Below, in pieces: positions 4,550 to 12,403 of a stretch of 64,000 bases of DNA (within the stretch, counting starts at the first letter, position 1; the number at the start of each line of letters is the position of its first letter). Source of the stretch: Granulimonas faecalis (lineage in GTDB: Bacteria > Actinomycetota > Coriobacteriia > Coriobacteriales > Atopobiaceae). The translations under genes and the position numbers were made by a program. Under the pieces are notes generated by a model, which was not told the origin of the DNA, did not search any database, and saw only the letters and a list, made by a program, of their open reading frames with translations. Location of the stretch: assembly GCF_022834715.1 (NCBI RefSeq), contig NZ_BQKC01000001.1:408501-472500 (forward strand). The letters are read 5' to 3'.

Positions 4550-4621
4550 GCGTGCGGACGGCGGGACGGATGAGCGGGGGATGACGGGATCGCATCTGTT
4601 GGAGTGAGGAGCGGCCCCACA

Positions 4622-4630
4622 TGGTATAAA
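4622..4630 (+). promoter_or_regulatory. Extended -10 promoter for the DUF3800 leader RNA
   Basis: TGGTATAAAT reads as an extended -10 element (TGn then TATAAA at 4625-4630). A start site six to eight bases downstream would place the first base of the transcript at, or one to three bases before, the GGAG that opens hairpin 1 at 4640. A weak TTGGAG lies about 20 bases upstream. Confidence 0.55.
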
Positions 4631-4636
4631 TAGCCT

Positions 4637-4697
4637 ATCGGAGGCGCGGGTAGCGCTTCCTCCAAGTGCCGGGGGTAGTCCCCCGGCGTTTTTTGTC
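4637..4697 (+). ncRNA. Two-hairpin leader RNA of DUF3800 gene
   Basis: Hairpin 1 spans 4640-4663 (GGAG-GCGC, loop, GCGC-TT-CTCC). Hairpin 2 spans 4668-4687 (GCCGGGGG, loop TAGT, CCCCCGGC) and is followed by GTTTTTT, a textbook intrinsic terminator. Together with the promoter at 4622 this defines a roughly 60-base RNA that would usually end before the DUF3800 coding region starting at 4710. Conserved RNA structures lying next to DUF3800 genes have been described in comparative-genomics work (the DUF3800 motifs), but I cannot say which of those, if any, this matches. Confidence 0.65.
4668..4694 (+). terminator. Intrinsic terminator between leader and DUF3800
   Basis: Eight-base-pair perfect GC stem (4668-4675 with 4680-4687), four-base loop, then six T after one G. 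It lies only 15 bases before the likely start of the DUF3800 gene, so read-through is required for expression of that gene from the upstream promoter. Confidence 0.9.
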
Positions 4698-4709
4698 TAG
4701 GGAGAACAT

Positions 4710-5387
4710 CTGGCTGCGGAACTGAGCATCTTCGTCGATGAGAGTGGCGATAAGACAGGTAGAGCTCGTTACTACCTGCTTACGCTTGTGTTCCACAATC
4801 AGGCCGATGACATCAGAGGGGGCATATCTCGCTACGAGACGGTACTGCTCGATGCCGACCTGCCAAATCTACCCTTTCACTCCGAGCCGCTCTTGAACGG
4901 CCATAAGGCATACTCCTCGCTCAGCATCGAACAACGGAAGAAGATGCTTGTCTGCTTCGCGTCGCTTGTACGCCATCTGCCGATTCAATACGACTGCTTC
5001 GTTTATAAAAGCTCCGAGTTCGCCGACGAGGAGCTGCTTCGTTGCCGCATGGAGCGGGATATCGCTCGTGCTATACGGGACAGGCTCGATCTCTTTCAGT
5101 CGTTCGACGACGTGAAGGTTTATTACGACAATGGGCAGCAGATTGTAAAAGAAGCAATTTATGCCGCAACAGAGTCGGAACTCTCGAGCAATGTCGTAAT
5201 CAGGAGAAAGACGACCATGACCGAGTATCGACTCTCACAGGCCGCGGACTACTTTTGCACGATCGAGCTTGCCGCTTTGAAATACGAGGCCAACGAGGCT
5301 GGCGAGACCTACAACAAGTTCTTCGGTGGTGTGGGTGCGTTCAAGAGGAACTGGCTGAAGCAGGCTCGGCGGAAGCGTCTTTTGTAG
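4710..5387 (+). CDS. DUF3800 protein (RNase H-like fold)
   Basis: The sequence LSIFVDESGDKTG at residues 5-17 is the family hallmark, with the conserved first-strand Asp of the predicted RNase H-like fold; the later SQAADYFC and the central acidic residues also fit. A GTG lies in frame at 4788, but starting there would delete the FVDESG motif. The frame is open back past 4710, where CTG follows a GGGAG site by five bases, so I propose a non-canonical CTG start (225 residues). Composition is clearly lower in GC than its neighbours, suggesting acquisition. The family is thought to act on nucleic acid but no biochemical role is established. It is monocistronic, with its own terminated leader RNA. 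Confidence 0.8.
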   Translation: MAAELSIFVDESGDKTGRARYYLLTLVFHNQADDIRGGISRYETVLLDADLPNLPFHSEPLLNGHKAYSSLSIEQRKKMLVCFASLVRHLPIQYDCFVYKSSEFADEELLRCRMERDIARAIRDRLDLFQSFDDVKVYYDNGQQIVKEAIYAATESELSSNVVIRRKTTMTEYRLSQAADYFCTIELAALKYEANEAGETYNKFFGGVGAFKRNWLKQARRKRLL

Positions 5388-6334: not shown

Positions 6335-7312
6335 CTACGCGGGCCACCAGATGCGAACGAGGGGCAGGATGGCGCGGGCCTCGCCGTCGGCGCTGTCGTA
6401 GCACTCCACATAGAGCCGCACGAACTCGTCGAGGTCGAGAAGCTTCACGGGCACGTTGGAGCGGTCGGCCTCGTAGCGGGCCTCCCGGGTGAAGCCGCCC
6501 GTGCTCACGTAGAGCCCGCGGTCGCTTGCGCGCAGGCCCCCGATGAAGGAGCGCACCTCGGGCGCCCCCATGGCCCCCTTGCGGTGCTTTACCTCGGCGA
6601 TGATGCGCGGGCTCTCAAGGCCCAAGGCATCCGGGGACGCGATCAGGTCGCGCCCGCCGTCGGGTCCCTTGGGCGTCACGCGTGCGTAATAGCCCATGGC
6701 GCGGAGCAACCCGGCCACCAGCTGCTCCATCTCTTCCCAGTCGAGGAGGTTCACACGGTCCTTGATGCGTTCGACGCCGTCGTTGTAGGTGGCGGCACGG
6801 GCCTCCTCGTCGTCGGAGGGCGCCGGCTCCTCATCGGCCGCCGGCGGTAGTGCGGCGGCGCGAAGCACATCGGCCATGACCTCGTCAGAGATGGAGAAGA
6901 TCGTCGAGATGGAGCCCAGCGAGTTTTTTGAGGACGTCGAGAGGCTGTCGCGCGGGGCCTCCTGGGTCCACACAACGGCGCGCCGGTAGGTCATGGCCTC
7001 GTTGCCTGCAACGGGCTCGCAGGGGCCCGCCACCTCGCCGATGTGATAGAGGCGGGTTTGGGGGTCGTACATGACGACGGTGCTGCCCTCGACCATGGCA
7101 TGGGCAAAGCGGTTCACCTGGCCGGCCGCCGCGGCGATCTTGGCGCGGCTTTCCTCGGGGTGGAGGGACTCGTAGGCCGTCCTGATCTGGTCGCGGGACA
7201 TGGCGGAGATGTCGGCGCCTCCCAGGTCCCATCCGATACCGATGACACCGTTCTCGATCCAGTTGGACGCGTAGGCGCCGTTGCGGCCTGCGCGAATCAT
7301 CCATGCGTCCAT
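6335..7312 (-). CDS. mrr: Mrr-type type IV restriction endonuclease
   Basis: 325 residues from ATG 7312, preceded by AGGAGC. Residues 1-115 match the N-terminal module often found on Mrr-like proteins (WMIRAGRNGAY, GVIGIGWDLGG, AGQVNRFAHAM, VMYDPQTRLYHIGEV), likely a reader of modified DNA. Residues 190-300 are the Mrr catalytic domain of the PD-(D/E)xK superfamily: MEQLVAGLLRAMGYYARVTPKGPDGGRD, with Asp 222 and the E-x-K pair Glu 240/Lys 242 in IIAEVKH. Such enzymes cut DNA carrying foreign methylation. Its place beside a type I system marks the start of a defence island; high GC suggests it is older here than the type I genes. Confidence 0.88.
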   Translation of the reverse strand: MDAWMIRAGRNGAYASNWIENGVIGIGWDLGGADISAMSRDQIRTAYESLHPEESRAKIAAAAGQVNRFAHAMVEGSTVVMYDPQTRLYHIGEVAGPCEPVAGNEAMTYRRAVVWTQEAPRDSLSTSSKNSLGSISTIFSISDEVMADVLRAAALPPAADEEPAPSDDEEARAATYNDGVERIKDRVNLLDWEEMEQLVAGLLRAMGYYARVTPKGPDGGRDLIASPDALGLESPRIIAEVKHRKGAMGAPEVRSFIGGLRASDRGLYVSTGGFTREARYEADRSNVPVKLLDLDEFVRLYVECYDSADGEARAILPLVRIWWPA

Positions 7313-7447
7313 GCGGGCTCCTGTTGACGTCCTAGGTGATTGCAATCGGATAAAAGTATGCCGCAAGGTCGTCGCACATCACTGCGCCATGTGTTTTTAA
7401 CAGCCGGGCCTCTACTCCCTCATCAGCGAAAGCCTCGCGATGCCGTC

Positions 7448-8374
7448 CTAGATGAGCGTTGATAACGCTCGCATGATTATGTCGACGTCCTTGTTCTCAA
7501 GTTCACGTATTACGTGCAGGTATGTGTCTTGGGTAGTATTCATACTTGCGTGACCAAGGCGCTTGGAAACGCTTGCAATGGAGACGCCTGCATAGAGCAG
7601 GAGCGAGGCGTGGGTATGCCGTAGCCCGTGAACGGAGATGACCGGGACGCCAACCCTGCGGCAATGCCGAGCAAGAACGTTGTTGGCCGTAGAGTTGTAC
7701 ACCTTGCCTTCTACAAAGATGGGCTTGTTTGTAGGAAGGTCTTTGAGTAGGGCAGCGAATTGCATCGTTAACTGCCAGTCGAGCTGGACTTTTCTCACAG
7801 AGGATGCGTTCTTTGTAGGGACAAATCCTCCACCGTTTTTGTAGTCCCAGGTTTTATCGACTGTGAGCGTCTGGCGTGCAAGGTCAAAGTCTTTGGGCGT
7901 GAGCCCCAGGGCCTCGGAGAATCGCAGCCCCGTTTTGGCAACCAGAAGAATCATCCAATCCCAGTCAGGTGAGTCGCCCAGCGCCAGATCCTCGAGGATA
8001 GCGTGGAGTTCGAACTGATTGAGGTACTTCGTTTTCTTTGGGCGTGGCTGCTTGCCTTTGATTATTACTTTGCGAGTAGGGTCGCGCTTGATGAGCCCCT
8101 CGTCTACCGCGTCAAGGACCGCGCCTTTTATCTGGTGGTGGAAATCCATGGTGGTCTGGCGCTCATGTTCTGCTGCATAGCCGTTTATCAGCCGCTGGTA
8201 TTCGATTCTGTCGAGGTCGCACAGCTTGAGAGCGGGTACGAGCTTTCTCAACCAGCTTTGGGTCAGCTCATACTTGCGCATGGTCACGTCCCGGATTGCG
8301 CCCGTCTTGTAGACGCTTACCCACTGGGCAAAGTAGTCACAAAACAGCGTGCTGCCGTTAATTGCTTCGGTCAT
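7448..8374 (-). CDS. Tyrosine recombinase (hsdS-switching integrase)
   Basis: 308 residues from ATG 8374 with a perfect GGAGG site; the longer frame to 8551 reads antisense through the silent hsdS cassette and was rejected. Residues 1-100 are the SAM-like core-binding domain and 115-308 the catalytic domain. Arg 151 (KTGLRFSEAL), His 249 and Arg 252 (HGLRHTH), His 275 (LGH) and nucleophile Tyr 285 (TQDTYLHV) are all in place. It lies between the Mrr gene and the silent hsdS cassette. Enzymes in this position in other type I loci invert or exchange hsdS segments through inverted repeats, which is the likely job here. Confidence 0.92.
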   Translation of the reverse strand: MTEAINGSTLFCDYFAQWVSVYKTGAIRDVTMRKYELTQSWLRKLVPALKLCDLDRIEYQRLINGYAAEHERQTTMDFHHQIKGAVLDAVDEGLIKRDPTRKVIIKGKQPRPKKTKYLNQFELHAILEDLALGDSPDWDWMILLVAKTGLRFSEALGLTPKDFDLARQTLTVDKTWDYKNGGGFVPTKNASSVRKVQLDWQLTMQFAALLKDLPTNKPIFVEGKVYNSTANNVLARHCRRVGVPVISVHGLRHTHASLLLYAGVSIASVSKRLGHASMNTTQDTYLHVIRELENKDVDIIMRALSTLI

Positions 8375-8900
8375 CTCACCCTCCTTCACCAATTCTCTTG
8401 GCTCACGCTGATGAGGGCATGGCTTTGAGTTGAAATTATCCCTAATTGGCGCCTTGGAAGAGTGTTTTTGAGTGCCCAATGCGCTGACCCTTGGGAACAG
8501 CGGAAGCTGGGCGATTTGATTGAGATTAACAGTGGGCGAGACTACAAGCACCTCGAAAATGGAGGCATCCCTGTCTACGGGACGGGAGGGTTGCTAGCCT
8601 ATGTTAACGAAGCCCTTTCCTACAAAAAGGATGCGGTAGGTATAGGACGAAAAGGTACCATTGATCATCCATACAAGCTTAAAGCTCCGTTTTGGACTGT
8701 CGACACCCTTTTTTATGCAGTTCCATCTAGTCAAGCGGACCTAGATTTTGTATTGGGTTTATTTCATAGAATCAATTGGAAGTCAAAAGACGAATCAACA
8801 GGACTTCCGAGCCTTTCAAAGAAAATAATAAATAGTGTGCCTATTATGGCTCCGCTGTTCCAGGAGCAACAGAAGATTGGTAAGGCACTCTCATATTGTG

Positions 8901-9048
8901 ATTCCCTCATCACCCTTCACCGGCGTAAGTTGGAGCACCTCCGGGAGATGAAGAGGGGCCTGCTCCAGAAGATGTTCCCGAAGGACGGTGAGTCGGTCCC
9001 GGAGCTCCGCTTCCCTGGTTTTACTGACCCTTGGGAACAGCGGAAGCT
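8901..9048 (+). repeat. Inverted repeat, silent-cassette arm (pairs with 11727-11874)
   Basis: Runs from the end of recognition domain 1 (DSLITLH) through the central linker into the start of domain 2 (DPWEQRKL). Its reverse complement, with only about half a dozen mismatches, occurs at 11727-11874 in the expressed hsdS. Further copies of the DPWEQRK end lie at 8484 and, inverted, at 12325-12348; a further linker copy is at about 11180-11255. These are natural crossover sites for the recombinase. Confidence 0.85.
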
Positions 9049-9501
9049 GGGCGATTTGATTGAGATTAACAGTGGGCGAGACTACAAGCACCTCGAAAAT
9101 GGAGGCATCCCTGTCTACGGGACGGGAGGGTTGCTAGCCTATGTTAACGAAGCCCTTTCCTACAAAAAGGATGCGGTAGGTATAGGACGAAAAGGTACCA
9201 TTGATCATCCATACAAGCTTAAAGCTCCGTTTTGGACTGTCGACACCCTTTTTTATGCAGTTCCATCTAGTCAAGCGGACCTAGATTTTGTATTGGGTTT
9301 ATTTCATAGAATCAATTGGAAGTCAAAAGACGAATCAACAGGACTTCCGAGCCTTTCAAAGAAAATAATAAATAGTGTGCCTATTATGGCTCCGCTGTTC
9401 CAGGAGCAACAGAAGATTGGTAAGGCACTCTCATATTGTGATTCCCTCATCACCCTTCACCAGCGTAAGGAGCTTGCTTCTATGGTGAACTGCCTGCAAA
9501 T

Positions 9502-9539
9502 AGGGGGCGGTCCGATTAACCCTAATCGGACCGCCCCCT
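9502..9539 (-). terminator. Terminator of the type I RM operon
   Basis: A perfect 17-bp stem (9502-9518 with 9523-9539) and four-base loop, 35 bases beyond the hsdM stop. It also closes the silent cassette from the other side. The T run is poor in both directions, but the stem is very stable. Confidence 0.8.
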
Positions 9540-9573
9540 GATGGGGCCGTACTCGCGCTGCGATGAGCCTTGA

Positions 9574-11157
9574 CTACACTCCGAGGAGTTTCAGCTGCTC
9601 GGCGATGGTCTTCTCAAGCTCGGCTATCTCTCGATCGTCCTGCTCGAGCTTTCGTTGGATCTCCTGCAGGTCGATTTCCGGCTCGGGTTCGAATGTGTCC
9701 ACATACCTCGGGATATTGAGGTTGTAGTCGTTCTCCTTAATCTCCTCGAGCGGTGCCACATGTGCGTATTTGTCGACATCGACCCGGTTTTTGTAGGTCT
9801 CGACGATCTTCTTGATGTGCTCGGGCTCCAGGCGATTCTGATTCTTCGCCTTCTCGAACTCCCGAGATGCATCGATAAACAGCACGTCCTTGGTGTCACG
9901 GTTCTTCTTGAGAACCATGATGATGGTGGGAATTCCTGTGCCGTAGAAGATATTGGCAGGGAGCCCGATGACGGCATCCAAGTAGTTCTTATCGATAATC
10001 TTCTGCCTGATCACGCCCTCTGCTGCGCCACGGAATAGCACGCCGTGGGGCAAGACGATCGCCATGGTGCCCTCGTCTCCAAGATGGTAAAGACTGTGGA
10101 GGATAAAGGCATAGTCGGCTTTTGTCTTAGGGGCGAGCTTGCCATATGGACCAAAGCGCTCGTCCTTCAGCTTAGTCTCGCTGTTGTCCCAATGCGCGGA
10201 ATAAGGGGGGTTGGCCACAACGGCATCAAAGGATGTGTGGGGGTCGTCAATACCACGAGCGTCCTTGCCAAACGGCCAGTCGGTGTCGAGCGTATCGGCA
10301 TTGGACAGGATCATATTGTTATAGGGCACGCCGTGCATCATCAGATTCATACGTGCAAGATTGTATGTGGTGGTGTTCAGCTCCTGCCCAAAGTACTTAA
10401 CTGGTTGGCCCTCGGGAAGCTCCTGGCCAACGGTGAGAAGAAGAGACCCCGACCCCATCGTAGGGTCGTACACCTCAAAGAAATCGTTCGTCCGCTTCTT
10501 GCCTAGGGTGACAATCTTCGACAGAATCTCACTCACCTCGTGGGGAGTGTAGAACTCGCCACCTTTTTTACCGGCCGATGCTGCGAACTGCTTAATCAAG
10601 TACTCGTAAATCGCACCTAGGATATCTTTCCCGTCATCGCTTTTATAATCGATGCTGTCTACGAGCTTGACGATGCGGTTCAGAGACTTCGCTCTCTCGT
10701 TTGTTGAGGACCCCAGCCGCGAATCGCCGAGATTGACGTCGTTGAAGATGCCTCTGAAATCACGCTCCGCGTCCTTGTTGAGCTGGGCGTTCTTGTTGAA
10801 GTTGTCAAACATGTCCTGGTAGTCGCTTGGCACGACCTCGCTGTTGTCGATTCTTGCTACCAGCGATGCCCAGGTGTCGTCCGGTGCGATGGCATATCCG
10901 AGGCTCGAAGAAATGTCTTCAAGGTAGTCGTTCAGGTCGTCACCGCTGGCTTGCTCCAGATAGGCGTCGTTGGGTGTTTGTCCAGGGGCGACGTCGATAA
11001 TGCCATCGTTGACCAGGTAGTTCTGCTGGTGCTCGGACAGATACCGGTAGAACATGAAGGCCAGGATGTAGTTCTTGTACTCGGCTGCGTCCATATTGCC
11101 GCGCAGCTCATTGGCCATGGCCCACAACTTCGAAGAGATCTCCTGCAGGTTGCTCAT
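9574..11157 (-). CDS. hsdM: Type I restriction-modification methyltransferase subunit
   Basis: 527 residues. I start at ATG 11157 (MSNLQEIS) because AAAGGA lies seven bases before it; a TTG seven codons earlier overlaps the hsdS stop. The N-terminal helical domain (AEYKNYILAFMFYRYLSE) precedes an adenine methyltransferase: EFYTPHEVSEIL at 201-212, SAM motif DPTMGSGSLL at 231-240, catalytic NPPY at 316-319. It methylates adenine in the sites chosen by HsdS and forms the M2S core. Last gene of the operon, 13 bases after hsdS. Lower GC than the chromosome, as are all type I genes here. Confidence 0.97.
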   Translation of the reverse strand: MSNLQEISSKLWAMANELRGNMDAAEYKNYILAFMFYRYLSEHQQNYLVNDGIIDVAPGQTPNDAYLEQASGDDLNDYLEDISSSLGYAIAPDDTWASLVARIDNSEVVPSDYQDMFDNFNKNAQLNKDAERDFRGIFNDVNLGDSRLGSSTNERAKSLNRIVKLVDSIDYKSDDGKDILGAIYEYLIKQFAASAGKKGGEFYTPHEVSEILSKIVTLGKKRTNDFFEVYDPTMGSGSLLLTVGQELPEGQPVKYFGQELNTTTYNLARMNLMMHGVPYNNMILSNADTLDTDWPFGKDARGIDDPHTSFDAVVANPPYSAHWDNSETKLKDERFGPYGKLAPKTKADYAFILHSLYHLGDEGTMAIVLPHGVLFRGAAEGVIRQKIIDKNYLDAVIGLPANIFYGTGIPTIIMVLKKNRDTKDVLFIDASREFEKAKNQNRLEPEHIKKIVETYKNRVDVDKYAHVAPLEEIKENDYNLNIPRYVDTFEPEPEIDLQEIQRKLEQDDREIAELEKTIAEQLKLLGV

Positions 11158-11170
11158 GGAGGTTTCCTTT

Positions 11171-12403
11171 CTAGACAAACATCTGCTGAAGCAGGCCTTT
11201 TTTCATTTCTTGCAGGTGCTCCAACTTACGCTGGTGAAGGGTGATGAGGGAGTCGAGACGGGAGAAAAAGTCACCAATCGCCTTTTGTTCCGCAATTTGC
11301 GGTAAAGGGACAGGCGTCTCCATTACCCTCTTTCTTGAAATATTGAATCTTGATATACCTTGTGCGAGAACCTTCATTTTCGAACGGAATAAGCTCGAAC
11401 GGAGCATGTAGGCGAGGTACAACGCATCGAATGAGCCATTCTGCCGGTAGCCGAAGCAGAAGCTGTTTAGGTAGACGTCCTTCTGGTCAGAGAGCCAAAC
11501 TGAAGACATGCCGACGTCTTCCGGAGTCTCAGACGACGTTGTAAAGAGCGTATCCCCCGTCTGCACCAACTGCTGCTTTGTATCTATCTCTATAAGCTCT
11601 AGTCTTTCGGGGTCCACTACTGGATTCTCAAATACGTTGGTATAGGGGATGTAACGTGCGAATCCGTGCCCAAAATCAGAGCTGGATTTACCGCTAAGGC
11701 CAGAGTAGGTCGTTCCGCAATCGCCTAGCTTCCGCTGTTCCCAAGGGTCAGTAAAACCGGGGAAGCGGAGCTCCGGAGCCGACTCCCCGTCCTTCGGGAA
11801 CATCTTCTGGAGCAGGCCCCTCTTCATCTCCCGGAGGTGCTCCAACTTACGCTGGTGAAGGGTGATGAGGGAGTCAATCTTGCTGAAGAACCGTCCGATT
11901 TGGCCCTGTTCGGAGATCTGCGGGACAAGAATTGTTTGGTCGAGGAAATCATCGACAACCAGCTCATTCATCATTGTTCCAAGCTTAGTAGACCGAACCA
12001 GAATTGGCCTCATGGTTGGTTCATGATGTATGTAGTGCTTCCAAAAAGCCTGATTCTGTTCTCCAGTTGGCCTAAGACAAGTGAATCGTGGGGACATAAC
12101 GCCTGTACCCGCATCATTTAGAACAAATCTTCCAAATGCAAACTCTTTGTTTTTATGACCCTCGAAGGCAATGTCTCCTTTTCTCAAGACTTTGTAATTA
12201 CGGAGAGAGTCGTTCGCGGCTCCATTGCCTTCTTCTTTGTATGTCATCGTCGAAATCGAGAGAGTGGACTCTTGACCAAGCCCTTGTTTATTCCGCTCAT
12301 TATTTTTGCGGTATAGGTCACCAAACTTCCGCTGTTCCCAAGGGTCAGTAAAACCGGGAAAGCGGAGCTTTGGAACACTTGGCTTCTTTTCGTCCATTTG
12401 CAT
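11171..12403 (-). CDS. hsdS: Type I specificity subunit, expressed copy
   Basis: 410 residues, full length for a two-domain HsdS. Recognition domain 1 covers about residues 20-180, the central coiled spacer about 180-215 (DSLITLHQRKLEHLREMKRGL), domain 2 about 230-380, and a second coiled spacer ends the protein (KLEHLQEMKKGLLQQMFV). Both domains differ from the silent-cassette domain, so recombination would change the target sequence. Starts at ATG 12403, six bases after the hsdR stop, with GAAGGG upstream. It joins HsdM and HsdR and sets DNA specificity. Confidence 0.95.
   Translation of the reverse strand: MQMDEKKPSVPKLRFPGFTDPWEQRKFGDLYRKNNERNKQGLGQESTLSISTMTYKEEGNGAANDSLRNYKVLRKGDIAFEGHKNKEFAFGRFVLNDAGTGVMSPRFTCLRPTGEQNQAFWKHYIHHEPTMRPILVRSTKLGTMMNELVVDDFLDQTILVPQISEQGQIGRFFSKIDSLITLHQRKLEHLREMKRGLLQKMFPKDGESAPELRFPGFTDPWEQRKLGDCGTTYSGLSGKSSSDFGHGFARYIPYTNVFENPVVDPERLELIEIDTKQQLVQTGDTLFTTSSETPEDVGMSSVWLSDQKDVYLNSFCFGYRQNGSFDALYLAYMLRSSLFRSKMKVLAQGISRFNISRKRVMETPVPLPQIAEQKAIGDFFSRLDSLITLHQRKLEHLQEMKKGLLQQMFV
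11727..11874 (-). repeat. Inverted repeat, expressed-hsdS arm
   Basis: Counterpart of 8901-9048. It covers the central spacer and the first residues of recognition domain 2. A crossover between the two arms would invert about 2.8 kb including hsdM and exchange the second recognition domain of the expressed gene. Confidence 0.85.

Follow-up and report, generated by a model that had tools for sequence, protein, structure and literature searches.

A conserved two-hairpin RNA upstream of a DUF3800 gene in Granulimonas faecalis: a candidate RNA-protein module with type III-like toxin-antitoxin layout

The 64,000-nucleotide stretch of Granulimonas faecalis DNA analysed here (the window) holds, directly upstream of a DUF3800 gene, what is, as judged by sequence comparison, a structured RNA, conserved along with a promoter of its own and lastingly tied to that gene. 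We suggest, with about an even chance of being right, that RNA and gene make up a self-contained RNA-protein module working by type III-like toxin-antitoxin logic, in which the RNA restrains a nuclease.

The initial annotation had described a promoter, a short RNA, a terminator and a DUF3800 coding region in close succession, and all of these elements were found in their places on the forward strand. The promoter is an extended -10 element (TGGTATAAA, TGG-TATAAA, 4622–4630) from which a transcription start at about 4637 is predicted. In aligned relatives the TGnTATAA consensus is kept, with every named base at 87% or more, and the conserved signal upstream of it amounts to a weak TTG some 20 nt further up, with no other block. 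Since a pattern scan of the locus detected no promoter of sigma-70 type having a -35 box, the promoter call rests upon the extended -10 and its conservation. The RNA that would follow is approximately 58 nt long (4637–4694), is related to Rfam DUF3800-XI, and was recognized by covariation and by a covariance model (R2, below). Its first hairpin, P1 (4640–4660), is composed of 8 bp, GGAGGCGC-GGGTA-GCGCTTCC; the pairing is kept and the sequence differs by clade, seven of the eight pairs having changed on both sides in the alignment of relatives. The window itself has an A-U pair at a position where its own clade has U-A. A single-stranded linker, UCCAAGU (4661–4667), joins this to the second hairpin, and its conserved C, C, A, A and G (alignment columns 57–61) are each present in more than 80% of sequences. 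Hairpin 2, P2 (4668–4687), again of 8 bp (GCCGGGGG-TAGT-CCCCCGGC), was identified by a terminator scan as an intrinsic terminator stem and is followed by a run of six T residues (4689–4694); in 52 sequences 100% of its cells are paired, with compensatory changes in three pairs. A Shine-Dalgarno sequence, AGGGAG (4699–4704), lies 5 nt ahead of the start codon. The two hairpins proposed earlier are thus both present, within 4640–4687, but the separate terminator hairpin is not: because hairpin 2 is itself the terminator stem, the RNA has two hairpins in all and no third. Three variant modules (L021, L022 and L025) do have a second strong hairpin ahead of the gene, after hairpin 2, which looks like a duplicate of the terminator or an additional one.

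Folding of the single sequence is unremarkable, being only slightly better than that of shuffles (z -1.68), which would suit the view that an ordinary promoter and terminator in an intergenic gap happen to lie beside a DUF3800 gene. Comparison refutes this view, and we give it next to no credence. Model R2, which was built from 31 relatives with the window left out to avoid circularity, matches positions 4637–4696 with 63.6 bits (E 1.6e-15 in 64 kb), and the RNA is conserved across three families of the Coriobacteriales and in Bifidobacterium. Over the whole 2.2 Mb genome the next independent match scores 18.1 bits (E 0.4); the window RNA is the sole convincing R2 match in the genome. More than 80 DUF3800 homologues were gathered together with their upstream DNA, and nearly all display the same order of TGnTATAA, hairpin 1, CCAAG-type linker, hairpin 2, T-run, Shine-Dalgarno sequence and start codon. 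In a sequence-only alignment of 52 RNAs, 92.0% of pairs are kept, versus 82.3% in shuffled alignments and at most 66.5% when the structure is slid along the alignment. The covariation score is 0.274 versus 0.140 in shuffles (0/500), a contrast which kinship among the sequences inflates; the slid control retains that kinship and is still clearly apart from the real structure (66.5% at most versus 92.0%). Changes on both sides were seen in ten pairs across the two hairpins. The initial annotation had staked its proposal upon conservation of the two stems in related genomes, and both prove to be conserved and covarying.

At cut-off, Rfam finds three tRNAs only in the window. None of the DUF3800 RNA motifs already published matches the window RNA at cut-off: the best of these, DUF3800-XI (RF02975), scores 11.7 bits on the window RNA (E 2.8), short of its gathering cut-off of 37.8. 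Distant homologous loci do match RF02975 above that cut-off (L091 with 52.0, L086 with 41.3 and L054 with 39.4 bits), and a covariance model that includes the window sequence (R1) recovers L091 and L086, neither of which was used in its building. Both RNAs lie upstream of homologous DUF3800 genes, that of the window also on the same strand as its gene, and both have the order hairpin, short linker, G-rich second hairpin and T-run. They differ in the shape of hairpin 1, in the linker (UCCAAG in the window, CCACC-type in DUF3800-XI) and in P2 (GCCGGGGG versus GGCGGGG), and the window-type proteins form a separate clade, approximately 31–38% identical. Since the window RNA falls below the cut-off yet homologous loci match, we read it, from these sequence relationships, as a probable new sister subclass of DUF3800-XI in the Coriobacteriales and Bifidobacterium. 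The top weak matches of a permissive Rfam scan, SorX and isrK, were far below cut-off and were judged to be chance terminator look-alikes. A riboswitch was rejected, there being no conserved aptamer core and a hairpin 1 which differs by clade; so was an anti-Shine-Dalgarno role for the CCUCC of the window's clade, which is not kept in Bifidobacterium or in the GGGTCTTCC group. A large survey of gut RNA motifs may list the window motif in its supplementary data (PMC8040213). We found no paper assigning a function to the DUF3800-associated RNAs catalogued in Rfam, the 2017 paper that defined the motifs lying outside the scope of this search.

Among 140 genomes of the bacterial family there were 117 matches to the RNA, 70 of them directly upstream of a DUF3800 coding sequence on the same strand and typically about 22 nt away from it. 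A search with the model of 396 genomes drawn from across the phylum gave matches solely within the same order, Coriobacteriales; the Bifidobacterium variants were reached through protein homologues. The sequence of P1 follows the protein clade, and distances in hairpin 1 and the linker correlate with protein distances (Mantel r 0.74, 0/2000 permutations, a test which kinship inflates). Near-identical modules, mostly with different flanks, occur in Collinsella, in an Eggerthella MAG, in a Coriobacteriia MAG and in other Coriobacteriia genomes. The likeness among the Collinsella, Eggerthella MAG and Coriobacteriia MAG loci is limited to about 0.9–1.1 kb, that is, promoter, RNA and gene, so that RNA and gene appear to be exchanged as a module, between bacterial families. 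Carriage by phages was rejected for want of any match in 50,697 phage records, and carriage by plasmids because the lone “plasmid” match was to a 900-kb Collinsella record. Up to eight copies of the RNA occur per genome (G061). Tandem RNA-DUF3800 modules were seen at L029 (1416–2361), L079 (516–1463), L157, L165 and L170, usually with one copy decayed, which suggests repeated gain at the same sites.

The RNA and the gene are not lost with equal ease. The two-hairpin RNA stands ahead of 68 of the 74 uninterrupted full-length DUF3800 genes, some of these being scored by visual inspection at loci that the model had missed (L057, L078 and L083–L085 are examples). The six exceptions comprise two insertions of an IS element inside hairpin 2 (L006/L175 and L066), three loci near a contig end at which the place of the RNA has been replaced (L017, L031 and L036), and L041, which has retained the linker and hairpin 2. 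Conversely, 47 of the 117 RNA matches have no DUF3800 gene directly behind them, and 16 of the 43 such orphans examined have DUF3800 debris, such as a truncated N-terminus, within 400 nt. A non-Watson-Crick pair in P2 was found in 20 of 42 orphan RNAs versus 6 of 55 gene-linked ones (p 7e-5). Because pairing relaxes in the orphans and the gene rarely occurs without the RNA, selection presumably acts upon the RNA mainly while the gene is intact. This asymmetry fits an antitoxin RNA; it is supporting evidence rather than proof, since a 60-nt element outlasts deletions more easily than a 670-nt gene, and there is the dull alternative that a gene deprived of its promoter decays anyway.

The IS element at L175 (G075:C36:1000-5425) is 1.87 kb long, has inverted ends of about 50 bp, codes for a DDE_Tnp_1 transposase and is flanked by a 12-bp palindromic target duplication, GGGGCTGTCCCC. 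In a second genome (L066) the same end of the element occupies the corresponding site, and the element therefore seems to target the terminator hairpin.

One might suppose instead that the hairpins are a cis-acting leader, an attenuator which sets read-through into DUF3800, perhaps with feedback by the protein, the short RNA itself being functionless. The position of the terminator immediately ahead of the Shine-Dalgarno sequence in nearly all loci is what such a leader would have, and relaxation of the pairing after loss of the gene is likewise in keeping with it. It leaves unexplained, however, the conserved CCAAG linker, a covarying hairpin 1 that is unneeded for termination, and the fit of the RNA to protein clades; nor was a conserved antiterminator seen. 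We consider this reading rather improbable.

Translation of the DUF3800 gene (4710–5387, stop codon 5385–5387) most likely begins at the CTG codon 4710–4712, which is favoured because it aligns with TTG and ATG starts in close relatives. The GTG at 4788 chosen by the ORF lister was rejected, as it would cut off the conserved FVDESG motif. A CTG in place of TTG or ATG would reduce expression of a possibly toxic protein. The product, of 224–225 residues (225 if CTG 4710 is the start), possesses a pfam PF12686 (DUF3800) motif (25.3 bits, E 2.9e-5, cut-off 21); Pfam showed no other domain, and PADLOC, NCBIfam and PHROGs no match. The earlier expectation of an RNase H-like fold was borne out by an AlphaFold2 model (pLDDT 93.8, pTM 0.91), of which the best Foldseek match was RNase HII (2dff, E 9.6e-4); in a second structure comparison RNase HII 1eke gave Z 8.6 over 165 residues and the PIWI domains of Argonaute proteins Z 7–8. 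Residues D9, D139 and D179 are invariant, and E10 is kept in at least 90%, of 49 sequences reaching down to 30% identity. We take the resulting D-E...D...D set to be reminiscent of RNase HII. With the predicted order of strands and helices and the RNase HII matches, these acidic residues would place the protein in the RNase H superfamily, and it is predicted to be an RNase H-fold nuclease. While RNase HII and PIWI domains are its best fold matches, sequence identity is only about 11%, and in the window protein strands 2 and 3 are separated by a large helical insertion. A sequence search of solved structures gave no credible relative, the best match being an HTH regulator (3bwg, E 0.004). An RNase H fold has been predicted for DUF3800 previously (PMC10910872), with which our model agrees, and for some CRISPR VI-F and V-A2 loci DUF3800 has been described as a nuclease of RNase H fold (PMC12669027). 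The V-A2 and VI-F accessory proteins share the DUF3800 domain with its RNase H fold (PMC10910872, PMC12669027), but those described from V-A2 are TPR fusions beside Cas12a2 (PMC10910872), whereas the window protein is DUF3800 alone, with no TPR domain. No CRISPR repeat family was found at cut-off in the 64-kb window.

Such a fold invites the thought that the RNA is not an inhibitor at all but a required cofactor or scaffold of the nuclease, the two forming a small defence ribonucleoprotein. The RNase H/PIWI-like fold is common to RNA-guided nucleases, some CRISPR loci of types VI-F and V-A2 have DUF3800 accessory proteins (PMC12669027, PMC10910872), RNA and protein co-evolve and move together, and pairing in the RNA is lost once the gene has gone. 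A guide RNA was nevertheless rejected, there being no variable or unpaired segment of guide size; the longest conserved single strand, and the longest unpaired stretch outside the hairpin 1 loop, is the 7-nt linker. The earlier suggestion that the RNA might guide the protein is thus unlikely. A terminator which lowers expression of the gene relative to the RNA also fits inhibition by dosage better than activation, and we think an activating role unlikely, if still plausible enough to be taken seriously.

Under the toxin-antitoxin reading which we prefer, transcription would begin at one promoter and yield a two-hairpin RNA of about 58 nt, most transcripts ending at hairpin 2. As the gap is too short to accommodate a second promoter, the gene would be expressed by read-through of the terminator and the RNA would be in excess; the few read-through transcripts would serve as the DUF3800 mRNA. 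Recognition of the RNA by the protein may depend upon hairpin 1, which is clade-specific, and upon the conserved CCAAG linker; the RNA would then hold the RNase H-fold nuclease in an inactive state until the ratio of RNA to protein was shifted by phage attack or some other stress. Against this reading stand the lack of tandem repeats in the RNA and the usual substrates of RNase H folds, which are RNA/DNA hybrids or DNA.

In ToxIN, CptIN and TenpIN an RNA gene, a terminator and an endonuclease gene lie under one promoter. The initial annotation had likened the locus to these systems, and in layout the comparison is sound: the window has an RNA directly upstream of a predicted nuclease gene, a single promoter, and a terminator and Shine-Dalgarno sequence in between. 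It does not extend to membership in a known type III family, the antitoxin RNAs of which consist of tandem repeats; no tandem or direct repeats were found in 4600–4720, and the putative toxin has neither the ToxN/CptN/TenpN nor the AbiF (HEPN) fold. A working example of this layout is RCd22-AbiF of C. difficile, in which the main product is the short RNA, the gene is carried on a long read-through transcript, and RCd22 neutralizes the AbiF toxin by direct binding (PMC12373285). Both loci have a promoter, a small structured RNA, an intrinsic terminator and a nuclease gene, although read-through was observed in RCd22-AbiF and is here deduced from sequence (PMC12373285). They differ in that AbiF is an Abi_2 (HEPN) protein and RCd22 has two motif copies, while here there is an RNase H fold and a single two-hairpin unit.

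Defence genes occur near the modules: in the window PDC-S02/Mrr and type I R-M, at L034 AbiD and at L048 AbiH. They come from a small sample lacking a background rate, and they fit the toxin-antitoxin or defence reading. In the window, the Mrr-type protein (6335–7366, reverse strand; PADLOC candidate family PDC-S02, E 7.5e-79) is two genes from the DUF3800 module. The type I R-M locus (7448–12403) contains an integrase along with two specificity genes that face opposite ways, one at 8462–9541 on the forward strand, with an internal duplication, and the other at 11171–12403 on the reverse strand. Such a layout is usual for phase-variable, inverting hsdS. At L034 (4400–5362, Senegalimassilia) the DUF3800 module is followed after about 0.7 kb by an Abi_2 gene of AbiD/AbiF type, and two RNA-linked nuclease families may here stand side by side.

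It is possible, if somewhat doubtful, that these loci represent a new type of RNA-protein toxin-antitoxin or RNA-controlled defence system, in which an effector of RNase HII/PIWI fold is checked by a single two-hairpin RNA. If so, they would provide an RNase H-fold counterpart to the AbiF-to-Cas13 story for HEPN proteins, and all of the DUF3800-associated RNAs would acquire a function. Restraint of the nuclease by the RNA would make DUF3800 a family of RNase H-fold toxins, and its co-option by CRISPR loci would then run parallel to the AbiF/Cas13 lineage. The subclass is compact and abundant in gut Coriobacteriales and Bifidobacterium, and its sequence variants and natural gene-loss states make the question of how RNA and protein act upon each other directly testable.
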